From NCBI RefSeq assembly GCF_039541115.1, contig NZ_BAABFP010000002.1:62001-126000 (forward strand): a stretch of DNA of 64,000 bases, in the 5' to 3' direction. Both the position numbers and the translations under genes were made by a program. The stretch comes from Angustibacter luteus. Its GTDB lineage: Bacteria > Actinomycetota > Actinomycetes > Actinomycetales > Angustibacteraceae. The notes beneath the pieces are model-generated. The model saw only the letters and a list, made by a program, of their open reading frames with translations, was not told where the DNA came from and did no database searches. This document shows, piece after piece, positions 45,831 through 53,208 of this stretch (position 1 is the stretch's first letter; every line of letters begins with the position of its first letter).

Positions 45831-46495
45831 GACAGGGCTCGGTGGAAGCGGTAGTACAGGTACGCGGCGGCCTCCCGGACCACGTACTTGGCGTCGGCCG
45901 CGGGGCTGGCCACGCTCGGGCCGGTCGTGGTCGGTGAGCCGTAGGCGGTGATGCCCTGGTCGGCGAGCATGGTCGTGCTGCGCAGCTCGTGCCAGCGGTC
46001 GGTGACGACCACCGCCGACGTCCAGTGGTGGGCGCTCAGGACGGGCGCGGCCAGCTGGACGCTCTGCAGGGTGTCCCGGCCCTTCTCGACGGCGACGACG
46101 TCCCCGGCGGGCACACCGTGCCGCACCAGCCAGTCGCGCCCGCTGCCACCCTCGGTGTAGGTGTCCCCCGGCTGCTTGCCGCCGACGGTCACCACCTTCG
46201 TGGCCGTGCCCGACTGGTAGAGCGCCAGGGCGTGCTCCAGGCGGGCGAGCAGGTACGGCCCCGGGGTGCCGTTGAACTGGGCGGCACCGAGGACCACCAC
46301 GGTGTCGGCTCCGCGGGCGTCGTCGGCCCGGCCGTGGGTCACCACGAGCGCCGCGCTCCAGACGAAGAGCGCCACCGCGACCGCCAGCAGCGCGACCAGG
46401 GCGCCCAGGACCAGGCGCAGCGGCGAGCGGCGCCGGCGCGATGGCGCTGCTGGTGGCGTGCTCGGACGCGACGCGGTCGCCGCGCCGCTACCCAC
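45827..46495 (-). CDS. YdcF/SanA family (DUF218) membrane-anchored protein
   Basis: A 222-residue protein with a Pro/Arg-rich start, one helix (LGALVALLAVAVALFVW), and a DUF218 domain with VVVLGAAQFNG, SRDTLQS-like GRDTLQSVQLA and VVTDRWHELRS. DUF218 proteins are linked to envelope integrity; biochemistry unclear. It overlaps dusB by eight bases. Confidence 0.8.
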   Translation of the reverse strand: MGSGAATASRPSTPPAAPSRRRRSPLRLVLGALVALLAVAVALFVWSAALVVTHGRADDARGADTVVVLGAAQFNGTPGPYLLARLEHALALYQSGTATKVVTVGGKQPGDTYTEGGSGRDWLVRHGVPAGDVVAVEKGRDTLQSVQLAAPVLSAHHWTSAVVVTDRWHELRSTTMLADQGITAYGSPTTTGPSVASPAADAKYVVREAAAYLYYRFHRALS

Positions 46496-47720
46496 CGCTC
46501 ACCGACAGCTCGGCCTCGCGGATCATCCGGGCGGACTCGCCCTGCAGCTCACGGCTGTCCAGCCAGCCGTCCGGCAGGGCAACCCGCTTCTGCGGCGTGC
46601 CGGCCCGACCCCGCTGGCCCTCGGCCGGGTCGCCCGGCCACGGCTGGCTGAGGTCGAGCTCGGCGACCAGCGCGTCGAGGTCGGCGAGCGTGTCGACCAT
46701 CGCGAGCGCGGCGCGGGACGGCTGGCCGACCGCGAAACCCTTGAGGTACCAGGCGACGTGCTTGCGGATGTCGCGGCAGGCCTTGCGTTCGCCGTCCGGG
46801 TAGCCGGCCTCGGCGTAGTGCTCGGCCAGCAGCTCGACGTGCCGGCGCATCGCCGCAGTGACCTCGGCGAGGGTGGGCGTCACCCGGACCTGCTGGCCCG
46901 CGAACGCGGCCGCGAGGTCGGCGAACAGCCACGGCCGGCCCAGGCAGCCGCGGCCCACGACGACGCCGTCGCAGCCGGTCTGGCGCACCATCTCGAGCGC
47001 GTCGTCGGCGCTCCACACGTCACCGTTGCCGAGCACCGGGATGCTGGTGACGGCCTCCTTCAGCTGGGCGATCGCCGTCCAGTCCGCGCGCCCCGAGTAG
47101 TACTGGGCCGCCGTGCGGCCGTGCAGGCTGACCGCAGCGACGCCCTCCTGCTCGGCCGTGCGTCCGGCATCCAGGAAGGTCAGGTGGTCGTCGTCCACGC
47201 CCTTGCGCATCTTGACCGTGACCGGGACGCCGGCCGGGCCGGCCGCGCGAACCGCCTCGCGGACGATGTCGCGAAAGAGGGTGGCCTTCCAGGGCAGGGC
47301 CGAGCCACCGCCCTTGCGGGTCACCTTGGGGACAGGGCAGCCGAAGTTGAGGTCGATGTGGTCCGCGCGGTCCTCGTCGACGAGCATCCGGACGGCCGCG
47401 CCCACGGTCGCCGGGTCGACGCCGTACAGCTGGACGCTGCGCGGGCTCTCGCCCGGGCCGTGCTGGATGAGCCGCATCGACTCCGGCGAGCGCTCCACCA
47501 GCGCCCGCGACGTCACCATCTCGCTCACGTACAGGCCCGCGCCGACGCCGGGCAGGCCGGCGTCCGCCAGCGCCTGGCCAGCGAGCTCGCGGCAGAGCTG
47601 ACGGAACGCCGCGTTCGTGATGCCCGCCATCGGCGCCAGCACCACGGGCGTGCCGATCCGGTGCGGCCCGATCGACAGCTCGGGCACGGCCGGTGCCTCG
47701 GGCAGGGCGATCGTGGTCAT
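46488..47720 (-). CDS. dusB: tRNA-dihydrouridine synthase
   Basis: A 410-residue FMN enzyme that reduces uridines in tRNA D loops. It has LAPMAGITNAAFR near residue 28, the active Cys in NFGCPVPKVTRKGGGSAL, VSLHGRTAAQYYSG and GNGDVW. ATG 47720 is preceded by a G-rich run. First gene of the dusB-ydcF-dgt operon. Confidence 0.92.
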   Translation of the reverse strand: MTTIALPEAPAVPELSIGPHRIGTPVVLAPMAGITNAAFRQLCRELAGQALADAGLPGVGAGLYVSEMVTSRALVERSPESMRLIQHGPGESPRSVQLYGVDPATVGAAVRMLVDEDRADHIDLNFGCPVPKVTRKGGGSALPWKATLFRDIVREAVRAAGPAGVPVTVKMRKGVDDDHLTFLDAGRTAEQEGVAAVSLHGRTAAQYYSGRADWTAIAQLKEAVTSIPVLGNGDVWSADDALEMVRQTGCDGVVVGRGCLGRPWLFADLAAAFAGQQVRVTPTLAEVTAAMRRHVELLAEHYAEAGYPDGERKACRDIRKHVAWYLKGFAVGQPSRAALAMVDTLADLDALVAELDLSQPWPGDPAEGQRGRAGTPQKRVALPDGWLDSRELQGESARMIREAELSVSGG

Positions 47721-47783
47721 CCCCCCATTGTCCCAGGTTCGGCCGAGTGATCGAAATCCTCGACCCGCCACGGGCCCCAGGTG

Positions 47784-47837
47784 TGTCGCGGCGCAACGCC
47801 ACTGCGCACCTATTGGAGTAGCGGCACGCAGTCCCAA
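47784..47837. repeat. Left arm of 54-base inverted repeat
   Basis: The 54 bases are the reverse complement of 48937-48990 with one mismatch. Matching extends four bases further outward with one more mismatch. It lies between the dusB start and the AbiEi/endonuclease-like gene, so it must overlap or lie close to promoters on both sides. Confidence 0.95.
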
Positions 47838-47912
47838 CCGAGCCGGCCGCCCCTTGTCCACAGATTCGCGTCCGGAGCGTTGGGACCCGCACAGGACCGG
47901 CAGAGTGATCCA

Positions 47913-48893
47913 GTGCCCCGCCGCCGCGACGTCGACCCCGCCGCAGTCGACGAGCTCCTTCGATCGCGAGAGCGAGTCGTCACGCACGCCGAGCTCGTCG
48001 CCGCCGGGATGCCGTTGAGCACCGTGTGCTCGCGGATCCAGCGAGCCGGCGCATGGCAGCGCCTCCACCCCGGCGTCGTCCTGGCCCACTCCGGCGTCCC
48101 GGCCCGTCGCGAACGCCTGCTGGGGGCCCTCGCATACGCCGGCCCGGGAGCCGTCCTCACGGGCAACGCGGCGCTCGGCCTCCACGGCCTGGGTGCGGCA
48201 CGCCACCACCGCGATCTGCATGTGCTCATCCGTGAGAAGGCGCGGCGTCAGTCACGACCTGGCCTCATCATCGAGCGCACGAGACGGCTCCCCGACCCGG
48301 TCGTCCGCGGCGGGCTGCCGGTCGCCCCGCCGGCTCGAGCACTCATCGACGCGTGCCGGCAGATCGAGCGGCTGGACGATGTCCGGGCCCTGGTCGCGGA
48401 CGCCGTCCAGTCACGTTTGTGCTTGGTGTCCGACGTCCAAGAGGCTCTGGTCGCCTCCGCACGCCAGCGCACCGCCTTGGCCCGGGAGGTGCTGGCCGAG
48501 GTCGCGGCAGGTGTGCGATCCGCTGCGGAGGCTCGAGTGCGGGTGGTCTTCGCCAGGCACCACATTCCGCAGCCGAGGTGGAACTGGGCGCTCCACGGCG
48601 AGGACGGCACGCACCTGCTCACGCCCGACGGATGGTGGCAGGACATCGGGTGTGCGCTGCAGATCGACTCGATGGCATGGCACCTGCTGCCGGCGCTCTA
48701 CAAGAGGACCCAGCAGCTGCAGCGGCTGATGAGCGTGCACGACATCCCGTTCCTGCCGGTAGCGCCGGGGGATGTCTTCACCGACGAGGCGGCCTTCGTG
48801 CGCGAGGTCCGAGCCTTTCTGGCCAGGCATGCCGACCACGTCCCCAGTCCGGGGGTCGTGGCCCGCCCGCCTCTGACCGACCTCCGCCGCTAA
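47913..48893 (+). CDS. AbiEi-antitoxin-like / DUF559-like endonuclease-fold protein
   Basis: A 326-residue protein of a family frequent in actinobacteria, often annotated as AbiEi antitoxin domain protein. The N-terminal winged helix RERVVTHAELVAAGMPLSTV is followed by RLHPGVVLAH and ALIDACRQ. The C-terminal ~110 residues resemble the Vsr/DUF559 nuclease fold (SAAEARVRVVF, PDGWWQDIGCALQIDSMAWH). No AbiEii toxin partner lies next to it. GTG 47913 fits the homology start; ribosome site weak. Enclosed by inverted repeats. Confidence 0.7.
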   Translation: MPRRRDVDPAAVDELLRSRERVVTHAELVAAGMPLSTVCSRIQRAGAWQRLHPGVVLAHSGVPARRERLLGALAYAGPGAVLTGNAALGLHGLGAARHHRDLHVLIREKARRQSRPGLIIERTRRLPDPVVRGGLPVAPPARALIDACRQIERLDDVRALVADAVQSRLCLVSDVQEALVASARQRTALAREVLAEVAAGVRSAAEARVRVVFARHHIPQPRWNWALHGEDGTHLLTPDGWWQDIGCALQIDSMAWHLLPALYKRTQQLQRLMSVHDIPFLPVAPGDVFTDEAAFVREVRAFLARHADHVPSPGVVARPPLTDLRR

Positions 48894-48936
48894 CCTCATC
48901 TGCCACGAGCTTCGACCCTTTTGCGGCGCCCGCCCA

Positions 48937-48990
48937 TTGGGACTGCGTGCCGCTACTCCAATAGGTGCGTAGTGGCGTTGCGCCGCGACA
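48937..48990. repeat. Right arm of 54-base inverted repeat
   Basis: Reverse complement of 47784-47837 with one mismatch. It begins 44 bases after the AbiEi-like gene stop and ends 33 bases from the DUF2469 stop. Confidence 0.95.
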
Positions 48991-49022
48991 GACCAGAGTG
49001 GCCCGCGCCACAGTGGGGGCGG

Positions 49023-49340
49023 TTAGAAGCCGGAGCCCTTGGGGAGCTCGATGTCGGGCTTGGCGAGCTCCTCGACGTTGACGTCCTTGAACGTGATCAC
49101 CTTGACGTTCTTGACGAAGCGGGCCGGACGGTAGACGTCCCACACCCACGCGTCGTTCATGGTGACCTCGAAGTACACCTCGCCGCCCTCGCTGCGGGCC
49201 TGGACGTCGACCGAGTTGGCCAGGTAGAACCGGCGCTCGGTCTCGACCACGTGCGAGAACAGGCCGACGACGTCCCGGTACTCCCGGTACAGCGAGAGCT
49301 CCATCTCGGTCTCGTAGTTCTCGAGGTCCTCGGCGCTCAC
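49023..49340 (-). CDS. DUF2469 domain protein
   Basis: A 105-residue acidic protein, [20 protein letters not shown] onward, closely matching the actinobacteria-specific DUF2469 family (Rv2901c). Function unknown; it always follows rnhB. The GTG start overlaps the rnhB stop (GTGA). Confidence 0.92.
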
Positions 49341-50089
49341 AACGACACCTCCGTCATCAGGCCATCATCGACCACGACGGCCGCGGGCGCCTCGCCGGGC
49401 GCGCCGACGGGCACCAGGTCGTCGTAGGGCGGCAGCCGCCACGAGCGGCGGTGGTGCTCGCTGGCGCCCAGCTCGGTCAGCGCGGCGAGGTGCTCGGGGG
49501 TGGCGTAGCCCTTGTTCACGTCCCACCCGTAGGCGGGGAAGGCGGGCGCGAGCTCGGTCATCATGGCGTCCCGCTCGACCTTGGCCAGCACGCTCGCCGC
49601 GGCGACGGACGAGCACTTCAGGTCGGCCTTGATCATCGTTCGCACCGGGGGGCACGGCTCGGCGTCCGCGGCGAAGGCGAGCAGCCCGGCGGACGACGGG
49701 TCGGTCAACCAGTCGTGGTTGCCGTCCAGGAGCACCAGGTCCGGGACGGCGGGGAGCGTAGCCAGCGCCCGTCGAGCCGCCAGCCGCAGCGCACCCAGGA
49801 TGCCGACGGCGTCGACCTCGTCCGGGCCGGCGTGCCCCACCGCGCTGGCCAGCGCCCACCGCTGGATGCGCGGGACCAGCGACTGCCGGGCCGCGGGCGT
49901 GAGCAGCTTGGAGTCCCGGACGCCGGACGGCGCGGTCCGCACGGTGGCGTTCACCAGCACCACGCCCACGCTGGCCGGCCCGGCCAGCGCACCGCGGCCG
50001 ACCTCGTCCATCGCGGCGAGCAGCAGGCACCCATCGCGCAGCAGGGAACGCTCGACACGAAGGGACGGCGCCCGGCCGGCGGGGCTCAT
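49337..50089 (-). CDS. rnhB: Ribonuclease HII
   Basis: A 250-residue type 2 RNase H that removes ribonucleotides from RNA-DNA hybrids. The metal site has [11 protein letters not shown] near residue 28, then LVLLDGNHD and KVERDAMM. The C-terminus has a ~35-residue extension. Coupled to DUF2469. Confidence 0.93.
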
Positions 50090-50197
50090 CGCGCTGCCTG
50101 CGGCATCGCCTGCACGGGTACCTGGCGGGCTGAGGAGGTCATGTCACCTGTCGGGTGTCGGAGTCGTCGACGTCCGGAACAGCCTACGTCGTGCGCC

Positions 50198-51154
50198 TCA
50201 GGGACCGACGTCGACCGGCGGGCGGCCGTCGAGCAGGCCCGCGCGCTCGTCCGCGAGCAGCTGGGGCAGCAGCGCACCGAGCGCACGCGGCGCGAAGACG
50301 TCGGAGTGCTCGGCGAGGATCTCGTCGACCGTCCACCAGCGCACGTCCTCGATCGTGGCCACCTCAAGGTCCGTCCAGCCCGAACGGTCGACGTCGATGC
50401 CCTCGACCCGCAGCAGGAACCAGCGCTCCCGGACGTCGAGCCCGCCGTCCTCGACGGGCAGCACGTGCCGGCGGCGCCACACGCAGTCCCCGAGGGCCGA
50501 CGGCCCGACGTCCAGCCCGAGCTCCTCGCGCAGCTCGCGGCGAGCGGCGTCGAGGGTGCTCTCTCCGGGGTCGACCCCGCCACCGGGCGGGAACCAGAAG
50601 GCGTGCCGGGCGTTGTGCGCACGCATCAGCAGCGCGCGGTCCTGGCGGTCGACGACGAGCACCCGAGCGGTGGGGCGCACCGGCTGGACGGGCAGCCGGT
50701 GGTGCACGTCGCGAACCCACCCGGCCATGGCTGACGGGGCGACGTCCGCACCGTCGGCCAGCAGAGCGTCCAGCTGGTCCGGCGTCCACCAGGCCACCCC
50801 GCGGGTGAAGCCCCGCTCGACGTCGTCCATCCCGCGCGGAACGGGCTCGAAGCGCTCGGTGCGCAGCGCGTAGAAGGTGTTGTGGCCGAGGTAGCGCTGC
50901 CCGTCGAAGCCGAACTCGTTGCTCATCACCTCGACGGGCTCGCCCAGGTCGTCGAGGGTGAGGCCGAGCTCCTCCCACGCCTCCCGGCAGGCCGCGTCGT
51001 GCGCCGACTCGCCCGGGTCGATGCCACCGCCCGGGCTCACGTAGCGCAGGACGTCCGGGACGGCGGGGTCGACCACCGACTGCAGCAGCACGGCGCCGCT
51101 CGGATCGATGCAGAGCAGGCGGGCGGCACGGCGGTCGATCACCGACACGCTCAC
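50198..51154 (-). CDS. Twin-Nudix hydrolase
   Basis: A 318-residue protein with two Nudix domains in tandem. The Nudix boxes start GGGIDPGESAHDAACREAW and GGGVDPGESTLDAARREL, each with the catalytic REXXEE core intact. Nudix enzymes hydrolyse nucleoside diphosphate derivatives; the substrate is unknown. GTG 51154 overlaps the signal peptidase stop (GTGA). Inserted between lepB and rnhB. Confidence 0.88.
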   Translation of the reverse strand: MSVSVIDRRAARLLCIDPSGAVLLQSVVDPAVPDVLRYVSPGGGIDPGESAHDAACREAWEELGLTLDDLGEPVEVMSNEFGFDGQRYLGHNTFYALRTERFEPVPRGMDDVERGFTRGVAWWTPDQLDALLADGADVAPSAMAGWVRDVHHRLPVQPVRPTARVLVVDRQDRALLMRAHNARHAFWFPPGGGVDPGESTLDAARRELREELGLDVGPSALGDCVWRRRHVLPVEDGGLDVRERWFLLRVEGIDVDRSGWTDLEVATIEDVRWWTVDEILAEHSDVFAPRALGALLPQLLADERAGLLDGRPPVDVGP

Positions 51155-51912
51155 GGCCCGGACGCCTCGACCTTCTCGAACGTCGCCGCGTGGCGCGACA
51201 GCCAGGTCGCCCGGGAGAACGGCCACACCAGTGCGACCGCCCGGCCGGTGACGTGGTCGATCGGCACGAAGCCCTTGTACCGCGAGTCCTCCGAGTGCTG
51301 GCGGTTGTCGCCCATCACCCACAGGCTGTTCGCCGGGACCGTGGCATCGAACGGGTCCTGCGACGGCTCCGAGCCCGGCTTGAGGTACGGCTCGTCGAGC
51401 GGGACGTCGTTCACGCTGACCCGGCCCTGCGCATCACAGCACACGACGTGGTCGCCGGGTAGGCCGATGATGCGCTTGATCAGGTGGTTGCCGGAGTCGT
51501 TGGGCAGCAGGCCCACGAAGGTCAGTGCCTTGCGCACCGGCCCCGCCGGCGCGGCTGGCGGCTGCTGCTCGAGCCAGTCGTTCGGGTCGACGAAGACCAC
51601 GACATCGCCGTGCTTGAGGTCGAACGGTCCGGGGGTCAGCTTGCTCACGATGACCCGGTCGCCCACCTGGAGCGTGTCCTCCATGGACTCCGACGGGATG
51701 TAGAACGCCTGCACCAGGAACGTCTTGATGAGCAGGGACAGCCCGAGGGCGATCACGACGACGATGACGGTCTCGCGCAGCAGCGCCATGGGGCCGGTGG
51801 CCTGCTTGCGCGGGCGGTGCCGCGGCTCGCCGAGCGCCTCGCGGCGGGTCTGTGGCTGGTCTGAGGACTCAGGCTGGTCGGACGCGTCCGCCTGCTCGGG
51901 AGGGGTGCTCAT
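51151..51912 (-). CDS. lepB: Signal peptidase I (second copy)
   Basis: A 253-residue membrane peptidase. One N-terminal helix (VIVVVIALGLSLLIKTFLV), catalytic Ser in YIPSESMEDTL and Lys in HLIKRIIGLPGD, then WVMGDNRQHSEDSR. It cleaves signal peptides outside the membrane. ATG overlaps the stop of the first copy (ATGA). Confidence 0.92.
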   Translation of the reverse strand: MSTPPEQADASDQPESSDQPQTRREALGEPRHRPRKQATGPMALLRETVIVVVIALGLSLLIKTFLVQAFYIPSESMEDTLQVGDRVIVSKLTPGPFDLKHGDVVVFVDPNDWLEQQPPAAPAGPVRKALTFVGLLPNDSGNHLIKRIIGLPGDHVVCCDAQGRVSVNDVPLDEPYLKPGSEPSQDPFDATVPANSLWVMGDNRQHSEDSRYKGFVPIDHVTGRAVALVWPFSRATWLSRHAATFEKVEASGP

Positions 51913-52682
51913 TTCCCGCTCACCGACGTCCCGTCGTCCAGCCCGCCGAAGTGGCTGAGCGGCCAGAACCGCAGCACGATCTTGCCGATGACCCGGTCGA
52001 CTGGGACCGTCCCGCCACCCGGGTCCCCCAGGTGCGAGCGGGAGTCCGCGGAGTCGCTGCGGTGGTCCCCCATGACCCAGAGGCGACCCGGCGGGACGAC
52101 GACGTCGAACGGGCTGGCGCTGGGGGCGTCGCCCTCCATCACGTACGGCTCCTCGACGCCGACGCCGTTCACGCTGACCCGGCCGGCGGCGTCGCAGCAG
52201 ACGACGTGGTCACCGGGCAGGCCGATGACGCGCTTGGTGAAGTCCTTCTCGGACGCGGAGACGCCGAAGAACGAGCCGATGCCGCGCACGACCTTGGCCA
52301 CGACGCCGTGGGCGGGCTCGACCTCGCCCGAGCCGGCGAACGAGTCCGTGCCGTCGAAGACGATGACGTCGCCGCGCTGGATCTCGCCCACCCGGTAGGA
52401 CAGCTTCGAGACCAGCACCCGGTCGCCGACCATCAGCGTCGGCTCCATCGAGCCGGACGGGATGTAGAACGCCTGCACCAGGAAGGTCCGCACGATGAGC
52501 GTGACGAGCAGCGCGGCAATAATCAGCGTGGGCAGCTCCTGCCACCACGCGCGGTTGCCGCTGTGCAGCCGCCCACCGAACGGCCCGCGGGACGACGGCG
52601 CGACCTCCGTCGGGTCAGCGGAGGTGTCGGCAGGTTCGGCAGCAGGAGCGGCCGAGGCCGCGTCGCCTCGGGCAACGTCCAT
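51909..52682 (-). CDS. lepB: Signal peptidase I (first copy)
   Basis: A 257-residue type I signal peptidase with a longer disordered N-terminus, catalytic Ser in YIPSGSMEPTL and Lys in FTKRVIGLPGD, and WVMGDHRSDSADSR. ATG 52682 is my choice; GTG 52688 is possible. Tandem lepB genes occur in several actinobacteria and may have different substrate preferences. Confidence 0.92.
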   Translation of the reverse strand: MDVARGDAASAAPAAEPADTSADPTEVAPSSRGPFGGRLHSGNRAWWQELPTLIIAALLVTLIVRTFLVQAFYIPSGSMEPTLMVGDRVLVSKLSYRVGEIQRGDVIVFDGTDSFAGSGEVEPAHGVVAKVVRGIGSFFGVSASEKDFTKRVIGLPGDHVVCCDAAGRVSVNGVGVEEPYVMEGDAPSASPFDVVVPPGRLWVMGDHRSDSADSRSHLGDPGGGTVPVDRVIGKIVLRFWPLSHFGGLDDGTSVSGK

Positions 52683-52789
52683 CAGCACGAGCCTATCTCG
52701 CGGGCCGGGTCCGACGACGGCGCGTCGGGTGCCGGGCTGGGTGCCGCGCTGGGGAGGGGACGGGGGCGGGTCGTGCCAGTCCGGACACG

Positions 52790-52827
52790 GCACCGCCCGG
52801 GCCGCTTGAAGCGGACCCGGGCGGTGC
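52790..52827 (-). terminator. Terminator hairpin after rplS
   Basis: GCACCGCCCGGG (52790-52801) pairs with CCCGGGCGGTGC (52816-52827), with CCGC/GCGG pairing inside. It starts 21 bases after the rplS stop, ahead of the lepB promoter region. Confidence 0.75.
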
Positions 52828-52848
52828 CGGAGAGCAGATCCGTGAGGA

Positions 52849-53208
52849 TCAACGCGTGACCGGGGTCTCGCGCTTCTCCTTGATCTTGGCGGCCTTGCCG
52901 CGCAGGTCGCGCAGGTAGTACAGCTTCGCGCGGCGCACGTCACCACGGGTGACGACCTCGATCTTGTCGAGGACCGGGGAGTGCAGCGGGAAGGTGCGCT
53001 CGACACCCACGCCGAAGCTGACCTTGCGGACGGTGAAGGTCTCACGCACCCCGTCGCCCTGCCGGCGGATGACCGCGCCCTGGAAGACCTGGACGCGCGA
53101 GCGGCTGCCCTCGACGACCTTCACGTGCACCTTGAGGGTGTCACCGGGGCGGAAGTCGGGGACGTCGTCGCGCAGGCTGGCGGCGTCGAGTGAGTCGAGG
53201 ATGTGCAT
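52849..53208 (-). CDS. rplS: 50S ribosomal protein L19
   Basis: 119 residues, the normal length. Contains [30 protein letters not shown] and VKLYYLR-type [18 protein letters not shown]. It binds 23S rRNA at the subunit interface. Last gene of the rpsP-trmD ribosomal operon, followed by a hairpin. Confidence 0.96.

Follow-up and report, generated by a model that had tools for sequence, protein, structure and literature searches.

A predicted AbiEi-nuclease gene enclosed by inverted copies of a dispersed palindrome in Angustibacter luteus and its possible partnership with mobile DNA repeats

We analysed a 64,000-nucleotide stretch of the Angustibacter luteus genome (hereafter the window), in which a single gene coding for an AbiEi-like protein is enclosed by two inverted copies of a short repeat (Table 1). 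In a repeat search over a 4-kb region, these two arms (58 nt each, 97% complementary, with a spacing of 1099 nt) were the best inverted pair, the runner-up being 40 nt long at 70%. The left arm ends 75 nt upstream of the start codon, the right arm begins 43 nt downstream of the stop codon, and the window arm is an imperfect palindrome. A preliminary description of this DNA had reported inverted repeats around one gene, at coordinates that correspond to the core of the arms (47784-47837 and 48937-48990); this was borne out, only one gene being located between them. The site of the gene lies between two ordinary genes, in neither an intron nor an intein. A Pfam scan of its three neighbours (the Dus, DUF2469 and RNase HII genes) detected no recombinase, toxin or methylase. 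As no AbiEii-type toxin gene adjoins it, a toxin-antitoxin pair was ruled out, and a known RNA family was discarded on the basis of an Rfam search without match within 46500-50500. Elsewhere in the window (51151-53045), two tandem signal-peptidase-like reading frames were noticed by eye.

Table 1. Position of the gene, its two arms and the adjacent genes in the window
Feature	Position	Strand	Description
Dihydrouridine synthase gene (PF01207)	46488..47720	-	Context; divergent from the AbiEi-nuclease gene
Left arm	47780..47837	-	One copy of the ~54-nt dispersed repeat; - strand sequence TTGGGACTGCG..GCGCCGCGACA
AbiEi-nuclease gene	47913..48893	+	326 codons, GTG start
Right arm	48937..48994	+	Second unit of the same dispersed repeat, inverted relative to the left arm
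DUF2469 gene (PF10611)	49023..49340	-	Context; convergent with the AbiEi-nuclease gene; followed by the RNase HII gene (PF01351)

The gene product matched the Pfam family AbiEi_4 weakly (E 5e-4, 20.5 bits, under the 25-bit cut-off), and its N-terminal part was clearly matched by the PADLOC models of the AbiEi defence family (E 1e-12). In the structure predicted by AlphaFold2 from 58 input sequences (mean pLDDT 90.9, pTM 0.83), residues 6-198 resemble the AbiEi antitoxin 6y8q (Z 11.6, rmsd 5.8, 184 aligned residues), and residues 203-308 resemble both the homing-endonuclease domain of I-Bth0305I (3r3p; Z 11.3, rmsd 2.5, 96 aligned) and Vsr (1cw0; Z 9.6, rmsd 2.8, 102 aligned). The top ranks of a Foldseek search were occupied by Rv2827c (1zel, E 3e-4) and 6y8q (E 5e-4), 3r3p being found further down (E 0.03). 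According to this model, the protein is an AbiEi-antitoxin-like fold joined to a Vsr/EDxHD-type nuclease fold, in agreement with the AbiEi/endonuclease-like label that the gene had initially received. The residues E206, D239 and H257, which we take to be catalytic by reference to Vsr and EDxHD enzymes, are present in the window protein and were kept in all 31 aligned rows having flanking arms; position 250, an E or D in most homologues, is a Q in the window protein and in L094. The likeness to Vsr and to the EDxHD enzyme I-Bth0305I thus concerns the predicted fold and the conserved E, D and H; the genomic context differs, as the window gene is neither in an intron or intein nor beside a methylase gene. 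No Y1 domain turned up when the window protein and 11 homologues were scanned with Pfam. Some homologues had DUF559 or MTES_1575 Pfam matches, mostly weak, and no family was assigned by Pfam to the 4 proteins tested from Amycolatopsis and Rhodococcus or by NCBIfam to the 5 homologues tested. A profile search of PDB sequences gave two matches (E 0.1-0.6), taken as chance.

Using one arm as query against the own 4.16-Mb genome (G000), we retrieved 12 units at 8 places, gene locus counted (E<=1e-3), 10 of which sit away from the gene. The preliminary description had named several copies, each flanking a gene, as support for a mobile cassette: several copies were present, and no gene enclosed by other units was seen at the other 7 places. 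The repeat unit reads approximately TTGGGACTGCGTGCCGTTACTCCAATAGGTGCGTAGTGGCGTTGCGCCGCGACA in one direction. Units form head-to-head pairs at three places (C2:295 kb, C2:703 kb and C7:34 kb) and are single or broken at the remaining four, and their GCGACA ends face outward both in the head-to-head pairs and around the gene. The nearest genes at the 7 other places (14 scanned, 14 with Pfam matches) were ordinary chromosomal genes, and no transposase was found among the nearest predicted genes at all 8 places. No target-site duplication was seen by eye at the paired copies, whose empty sites lie in drifting DNA. An insertion sequence was discarded as an explanation, neither a transposase among these genes nor a visible target duplication having been found.

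These numbers bear on a self-marking defence, in which the palindromes would shield host DNA from a nuclease acting on unmarked DNA. The PADLOC match of the N-terminal part and the fast turnover of gene and arms (see below) would suit such a role, but 12 units are too sparse for a genome of this size and neither toxin nor methylase accompanies the gene among the three neighbours scanned, so that we regard it as extremely improbable.

Dispersal of the gene's own arm was observed in the five genomes searched (G000, G001, G086, G119 and G123). The arm of the congener G001 had 38 matches in its own genome and 1 weak match in G000, and that of G000 matched a single genome among 39, its own, with none in G001. 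The arm of G086 gave 36 matches at home, with 16 in G114, 23 in G009 and 6 in G072, which are relatives of that genome; that of G119 gave 33 and, in three further Rhodococcus genomes, 35, 12 and 2. For G123, at least 80 matches were obtained in the genome itself (40 scored of 192 first-look candidates), at least 81 in G124 (40 scored of 306) and at least 74 in G125 (40 of 200). As match counts of palindromic arms include both strands, the number of sites is lower. Eleven 20-kb stretches sampled from G124 contained 17 copies, which were assigned to five arm types.

Empty sites were sought between the two congeners by comparing 7 G000 loci with 14 G001 stretches and 16 G001 loci with 6 G000 stretches. 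Both flanks were alignable at three places, all head-to-head pairs (L007 and L014 in G000, L064 in G001), and in these 3 of 3 pairs the repeat was missing from the orthologous site of the other species, in agreement with the genome searches, which listed no match at the three empty sites. Concerning the remaining G000 loci, four were without alignable stretch in the DNA compared and L005 aligned on one side; as for G001, one-sided alignment was obtained for the pair L065/L069 and a short aligned stretch for L058, and the others did not align. The difference between the species may correspond to a gain or to a loss of the repeat.

Homologues of the protein were found in 29 of 119 genomes, own genome counted. 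Self-comparison of their loci indicated that most are enclosed by inverted repeats, the sequence of which differs from locus to locus. A flanking score was defined as the best inverted match between DNA upstream and downstream of the gene, with a threshold of >=30. In a first set, controlled by cross-genome pairs only, 19 of 32 loci exceeded the 99th percentile of 984 such pairs; L031 and L041, with misplaced gene ends, were scored as misses, their flanking repeats being visible in self-comparison. For the second set, we took the top 80 among 129 named loci (from Rhodococcus, Amycolatopsis, Quadrisphaera, Geodermatophilaceae, Pseudonocardia, Kutzneria and others), minus L106 and L144, excluded as too short. 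A score >=30 was reached by 44 of these 78 loci, versus 0 of 278 controls in which the two stretches compared were displaced by 1.5-2 kb at the locus concerned; among cross pairs, 13 of 1152 reached it. Several of the other 34 loci had a long palindrome upstream only. In the third set, scored without a control of its own, arms were present at 26 of the 30 best Amycolatopsis homologues (one per genome). Repeats thus occur around many homologous genes as well as elsewhere in the genome, the opposite of what, according to the preliminary description, would have refuted its reading.

The downstream arm of high-scoring loci mostly starts 0-25 nt past the stop codon, and the palindromes of homologue arms are mostly 45-60 nt long. 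Many homologue arms are palindromic in themselves: when L106, L144 and L153 were excluded, stem scores >=14 were recorded downstream at 24 of 77 loci (shifted stretches: 0/275), upstream at 33/77 (7/275) and on both sides at 18/77 (0/275). The wider MTES_1575 family had matches in 43 of 119 genomes of the phylum; 16 of its loci were examined, and of the 15 long enough to be scored, L229 (47) and L220 (33) reached 30, without shifted control. Plasmids yielded one match, 34% identical, in Rhodococcus ruber.

The position of the copies was assessed on five sets by a crude frame-composition method (50 rows, some of them two units of one pair; one clipped locus excluded): 41 rows were intergenic, 7 apparently coding and 2 undecided. 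The intergenic rows were divided into 23 between convergent genes, 16 between tandem genes and just 2 between divergent genes. According to PMC7319586, the promoter of Streptococcus agalactiae AbiEi contains two 23-bp inverted repeats, spaced by 3 bp, to which the protein binds; Rv2827c binds four such repeats, and both proteins autoregulate via these paired repeats. The window protein shares with type IV toxin-antitoxin components the predicted fold of residues 6-198 and the PADLOC match; it differs by the lack of an AbiEii neighbour, the fused nuclease domain and the occurrence of repeats also downstream and genome-wide. An imperfect palindromic arm of ~54 nt lies upstream of its gene. Because one arm approximates the size and symmetry of the paired 23-bp repeats, the N-terminal part probably binds it.

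A purely regulatory role could account for some of these features: the upstream palindrome would be an autoregulatory operator, the palindrome after the gene would terminate transcription or serve as another operator, the dispersed copies would be terminators or a regulon, and the nuclease fold a relic. The precedent of AbiEi and Rv2827c, the preference of dispersed copies for convergent gene ends and the Q at position 250 all agree with it, as do the homologues with a palindrome solely upstream, several of which have E206, D239 and H257 intact; the latter count against the explanation that we favour below, being what plain autoregulation would give. Regulation only nevertheless explains poorly why near-copies occur across one species and are missing from the congener's orthologous site, why arms match across the gene and differ among species, why so few copies lie between divergent genes and why the three presumed catalytic residues are kept in every arm-flanked row. 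We consider it rather unlikely.

The link between gene and repeat was further explored in Amycolatopsis. Among 60 genomes, the L142-type repeat was abundant in 18 (at least 25-30 matches with 15 candidates scored, for 62-386 candidates) and absent at E<=1e-6 in 42. All 13 genomes with a homologue >=66% identical were rich in this repeat, versus 5 of the 47 others (G256, G283, G281, G286 and G257), kinship being ignored in this count; the best homologues of G257 and G286 are just 48-52% identical. At the best homologue of 17 repeat-rich genomes, the arms were L142-like in 7 (similarity 36-60), between in 2 (30 and 32) and unlike in 8 (8-24). Repeat-rich genomes carry 4-9 homologues each at E<=1e-20, and 8 of 29 further Amycolatopsis homologues from seven genomes had both arms (score >=30). 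Kinship again ignored, arm type tracks protein identity at the best-homologue locus, 76-100% corresponding to one type and 66-70% to others. As a separate observation, G281 has the most first-look L142-type candidates (386), yet a weaker best match (8e-13), a 59% homologue and other arms.

The upstream neighbour of the reference gene was kept in 23 of 29 other Amycolatopsis loci, at 88-97% DNA identity, whereas the gene products at loci sharing this neighbour are only 58-78% identical and their arms differ. Turnover of the gene and its arms at this position is therefore rapid. Along L244-L268, the downstream neighbour exists in at least two versions, independent of arm type, next to the strongly conserved upstream neighbour, a pattern that may point to alleles being exchanged at a constant position.

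The preliminary description had envisaged a mobile cassette or an invertible switch. What holds of the former concerns the repeat: its recurrence, the flanking of homologues and the three copies absent from the congener's site are as expected of mobile DNA. The gene itself was not seen to move as a cassette; it adjoins the same DUF2469 gene in G000, G001 and G003 and, in 23 of the 29 Amycolatopsis loci mentioned above, keeps the upstream neighbour of the reference locus. Nor do these loci support the switch, only one orientation being found, with the same neighbour on the same side. More generally, an invertible or homing cassette, in which the gene would be flipped by recombination between the arms or would home together with them, would fit the long inverted arms, the C-terminal fold (in the predicted structure nearest to a homing endonuclease) and the divergence of the Amycolatopsis gene products next to conserved DNA, as if alleles had been replaced in place. 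It is very improbable in view of the constant orientation and position of the gene in the loci compared, the lack of a recombinase in the three neighbours scanned and the 10 of 12 G000 units located away from the gene.

Downstream palindromes were also examined for covariation, on 21 rows (20 distinct) from the 25 hairpin-bearing of 30 loci, L255, L256, L261 and L272 being excluded as their arms did not align. Among 25 pairs, 20 changed on both sides, and 94.0% of cells pair. The covariation score was 0.498, versus a shuffled mean of 0.157, and was reached by 0 of 500 shuffles. Since rows were picked for having a hairpin, it is the compensatory changes, not the pairing, that carry weight.

The repeats could also be MITEs or REPs whose movement depends on an unrelated enzyme elsewhere in the genome, repeat copies having been captured at both ends of the gene. 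As with MITEs and their parent insertion sequence, there is a gene-bearing unit with terminal inverted repeats and there are gene-free relatives of the same arms, and pairs made of arms only look like MITEs or REPINs; no transposase signature links the gene to movement, and several Amycolatopsis genomes have repeats unlike the arms of their closest homologue. In contrast with MITEs, the arms are palindromic, with no transposase among the nearest genes scanned and no target duplication seen. Capture must then have happened repeatedly, with other repeat families in each of many lineages and on both sides of one gene family, and no transposase is encoded by the 14 genes nearest to the 7 other G000 places, which makes this reading improbable.

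We then considered the E/D/H triad in relation to the palindromes, for 55 of the 58 alignment rows. A flanking repeat or palindrome was kept in none of the 11 rows in which the triad was lost, versus 37 of 44 intact rows (Fisher p 3e-7); 7 intact rows were thus without palindrome, and 18 of the 55 rows had neither flanking repeat nor palindrome. On the tree, the link corresponds to about 2 changes, and an independent-pairs test gave 1 pair the same way, 0 against and 4 without difference. The link is suggestive only, because of these few changes and of the lack of support once kinship is allowed for.

Dispersed palindromes accompanied by a partner gene are of a known kind. According to PMC3733652 and PMC3116915, REPs and REPINs are short extragenic palindromes, single or in inverted pairs, genome-specific and present in a dozen to hundreds of copies, and the RAYT gene is flanked by the same repeat, with which it appears to co-evolve. 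The CGTC-type REP superfamily is described in PMC3733652 as apparently without dedicated transposase; the words Actinobacteria and Streptomyces are absent from the text of that article. The system analysed here resembles RAYT/REPtron and TIRYT/TIRtron elements by its palindromic, extragenic, many-copy repeats and by a gene enclosed by the same repeat. It differs by its protein, for which Pfam detects no HUH/Y1 transposase and whose predicted fold is AbiEi plus a Vsr/EDxHD nuclease, and by the length of its palindromes, mostly 45-60 nt. Because the HUH/Y1 domain is absent, the protein does not belong to the RAYTs, and the unrelated candidate partner would be the new part. We found no link between this protein family and repeats in the open-access literature searched, nor any link between DUF559 and inverted or dispersed repeats, PMC12907096 included.

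The explanation that we favour, with slightly better than even confidence, is a REP-like system of independent make-up, whose partner would be the AbiEi-nuclease instead of a RAYT transposase and would bind and cut the palindrome so as to spread it. The gene lies between two copies of a 45-60-nt palindrome (imperfect in the window), further copies of which, single or in head-to-head pairs, are scattered mostly intergenically. By analogy with known AbiEi proteins and their paired ~23-bp inverted repeats, the AbiEi part would most likely bind the palindrome, and binding to the upstream arm would probably entail autoregulation of the gene as a by-product. The nuclease part would nick or cut the palindrome or the target DNA; through such cuts, palindromes might be copied, exchanged or transferred to new sites, much in the way proposed for REPs and RAYT proteins. 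What the analysis documents is the enclosure of the gene, the scatter of its repeat, sites filled in one congener and empty in the other, covarying palindromes, rapid turnover and the predicted fold; binding, cleavage and copying, as well as the assignment of these steps to this protein, are inferred. Weighing against this explanation are the loci below the flanking threshold, the intact-triad rows lacking a palindrome, the low share of further Amycolatopsis homologues with both arms, the repeat-rich Amycolatopsis genomes with arms unlike the L142 type or with a distant best homologue (G257 and G286), the Q at position 250, the absence of a visible target duplication and the low share of MTES_1575 loci reaching the threshold.

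These observations suggest an undescribed partnership between the AbiEi-nuclease family and mobile DNA repeats. In a broader proposal, to which we attach a confidence a little short of even, AbiEi-nucleases would form a second, unrelated class of REP-forming enzymes, each copying its own palindrome across Actinomycetota, with binding domain, palindrome and arms co-evolving quickly; proteins at present labelled AbiEi-like or hypothetical would be the missing partners of dispersed palindromes in RAYT-less genomes. Dispersed palindromes are common in bacterial genomes and RAYT is the partner enzyme proposed for them; the AbiEi-nuclease family, whose genes lie between repeats of their own in many lineages of actinobacteria, is a concrete candidate partner for repeats without a dedicated transposase. 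If true, this would assign a function to proteins currently classed as orphan antitoxins or as hypothetical. The system also offers ready-made protein-DNA pairs that covary naturally, and two species in which sites are filled or empty.

Several minor observations complete this survey. By eye, the arm centre is CCTATTGG or a near variant in several lineages whose stems differ (window arms; L025 of G001; L095, L097, L028 and L029, with Geodermatophilaceae among these lineages), other centres being GTAGGAC-like in G086 and G072 and CTAGG-like in some Amycolatopsis; as judged from sequence, the common arm core may be a contact or cut site. A gene-free copy of the window repeat in G000 (L010, C5:375784) adjoins a BldD-like gene, and in G077 a homologous gene and its arms (L030) lie, by eye, between bldD-like and nusB genes; these neighbours possibly reflect a shared landing place or a remnant. 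Finally, G000 contains two more homologues, 29-32% identical, L023 (C7:300 kb) and L024 (C5:890 kb). The former is enclosed by palindromes of another sequence (score 44), and the palindrome 3' of the stop codon of the latter has CGTGGCAAC in common with the palindrome upstream of L023.
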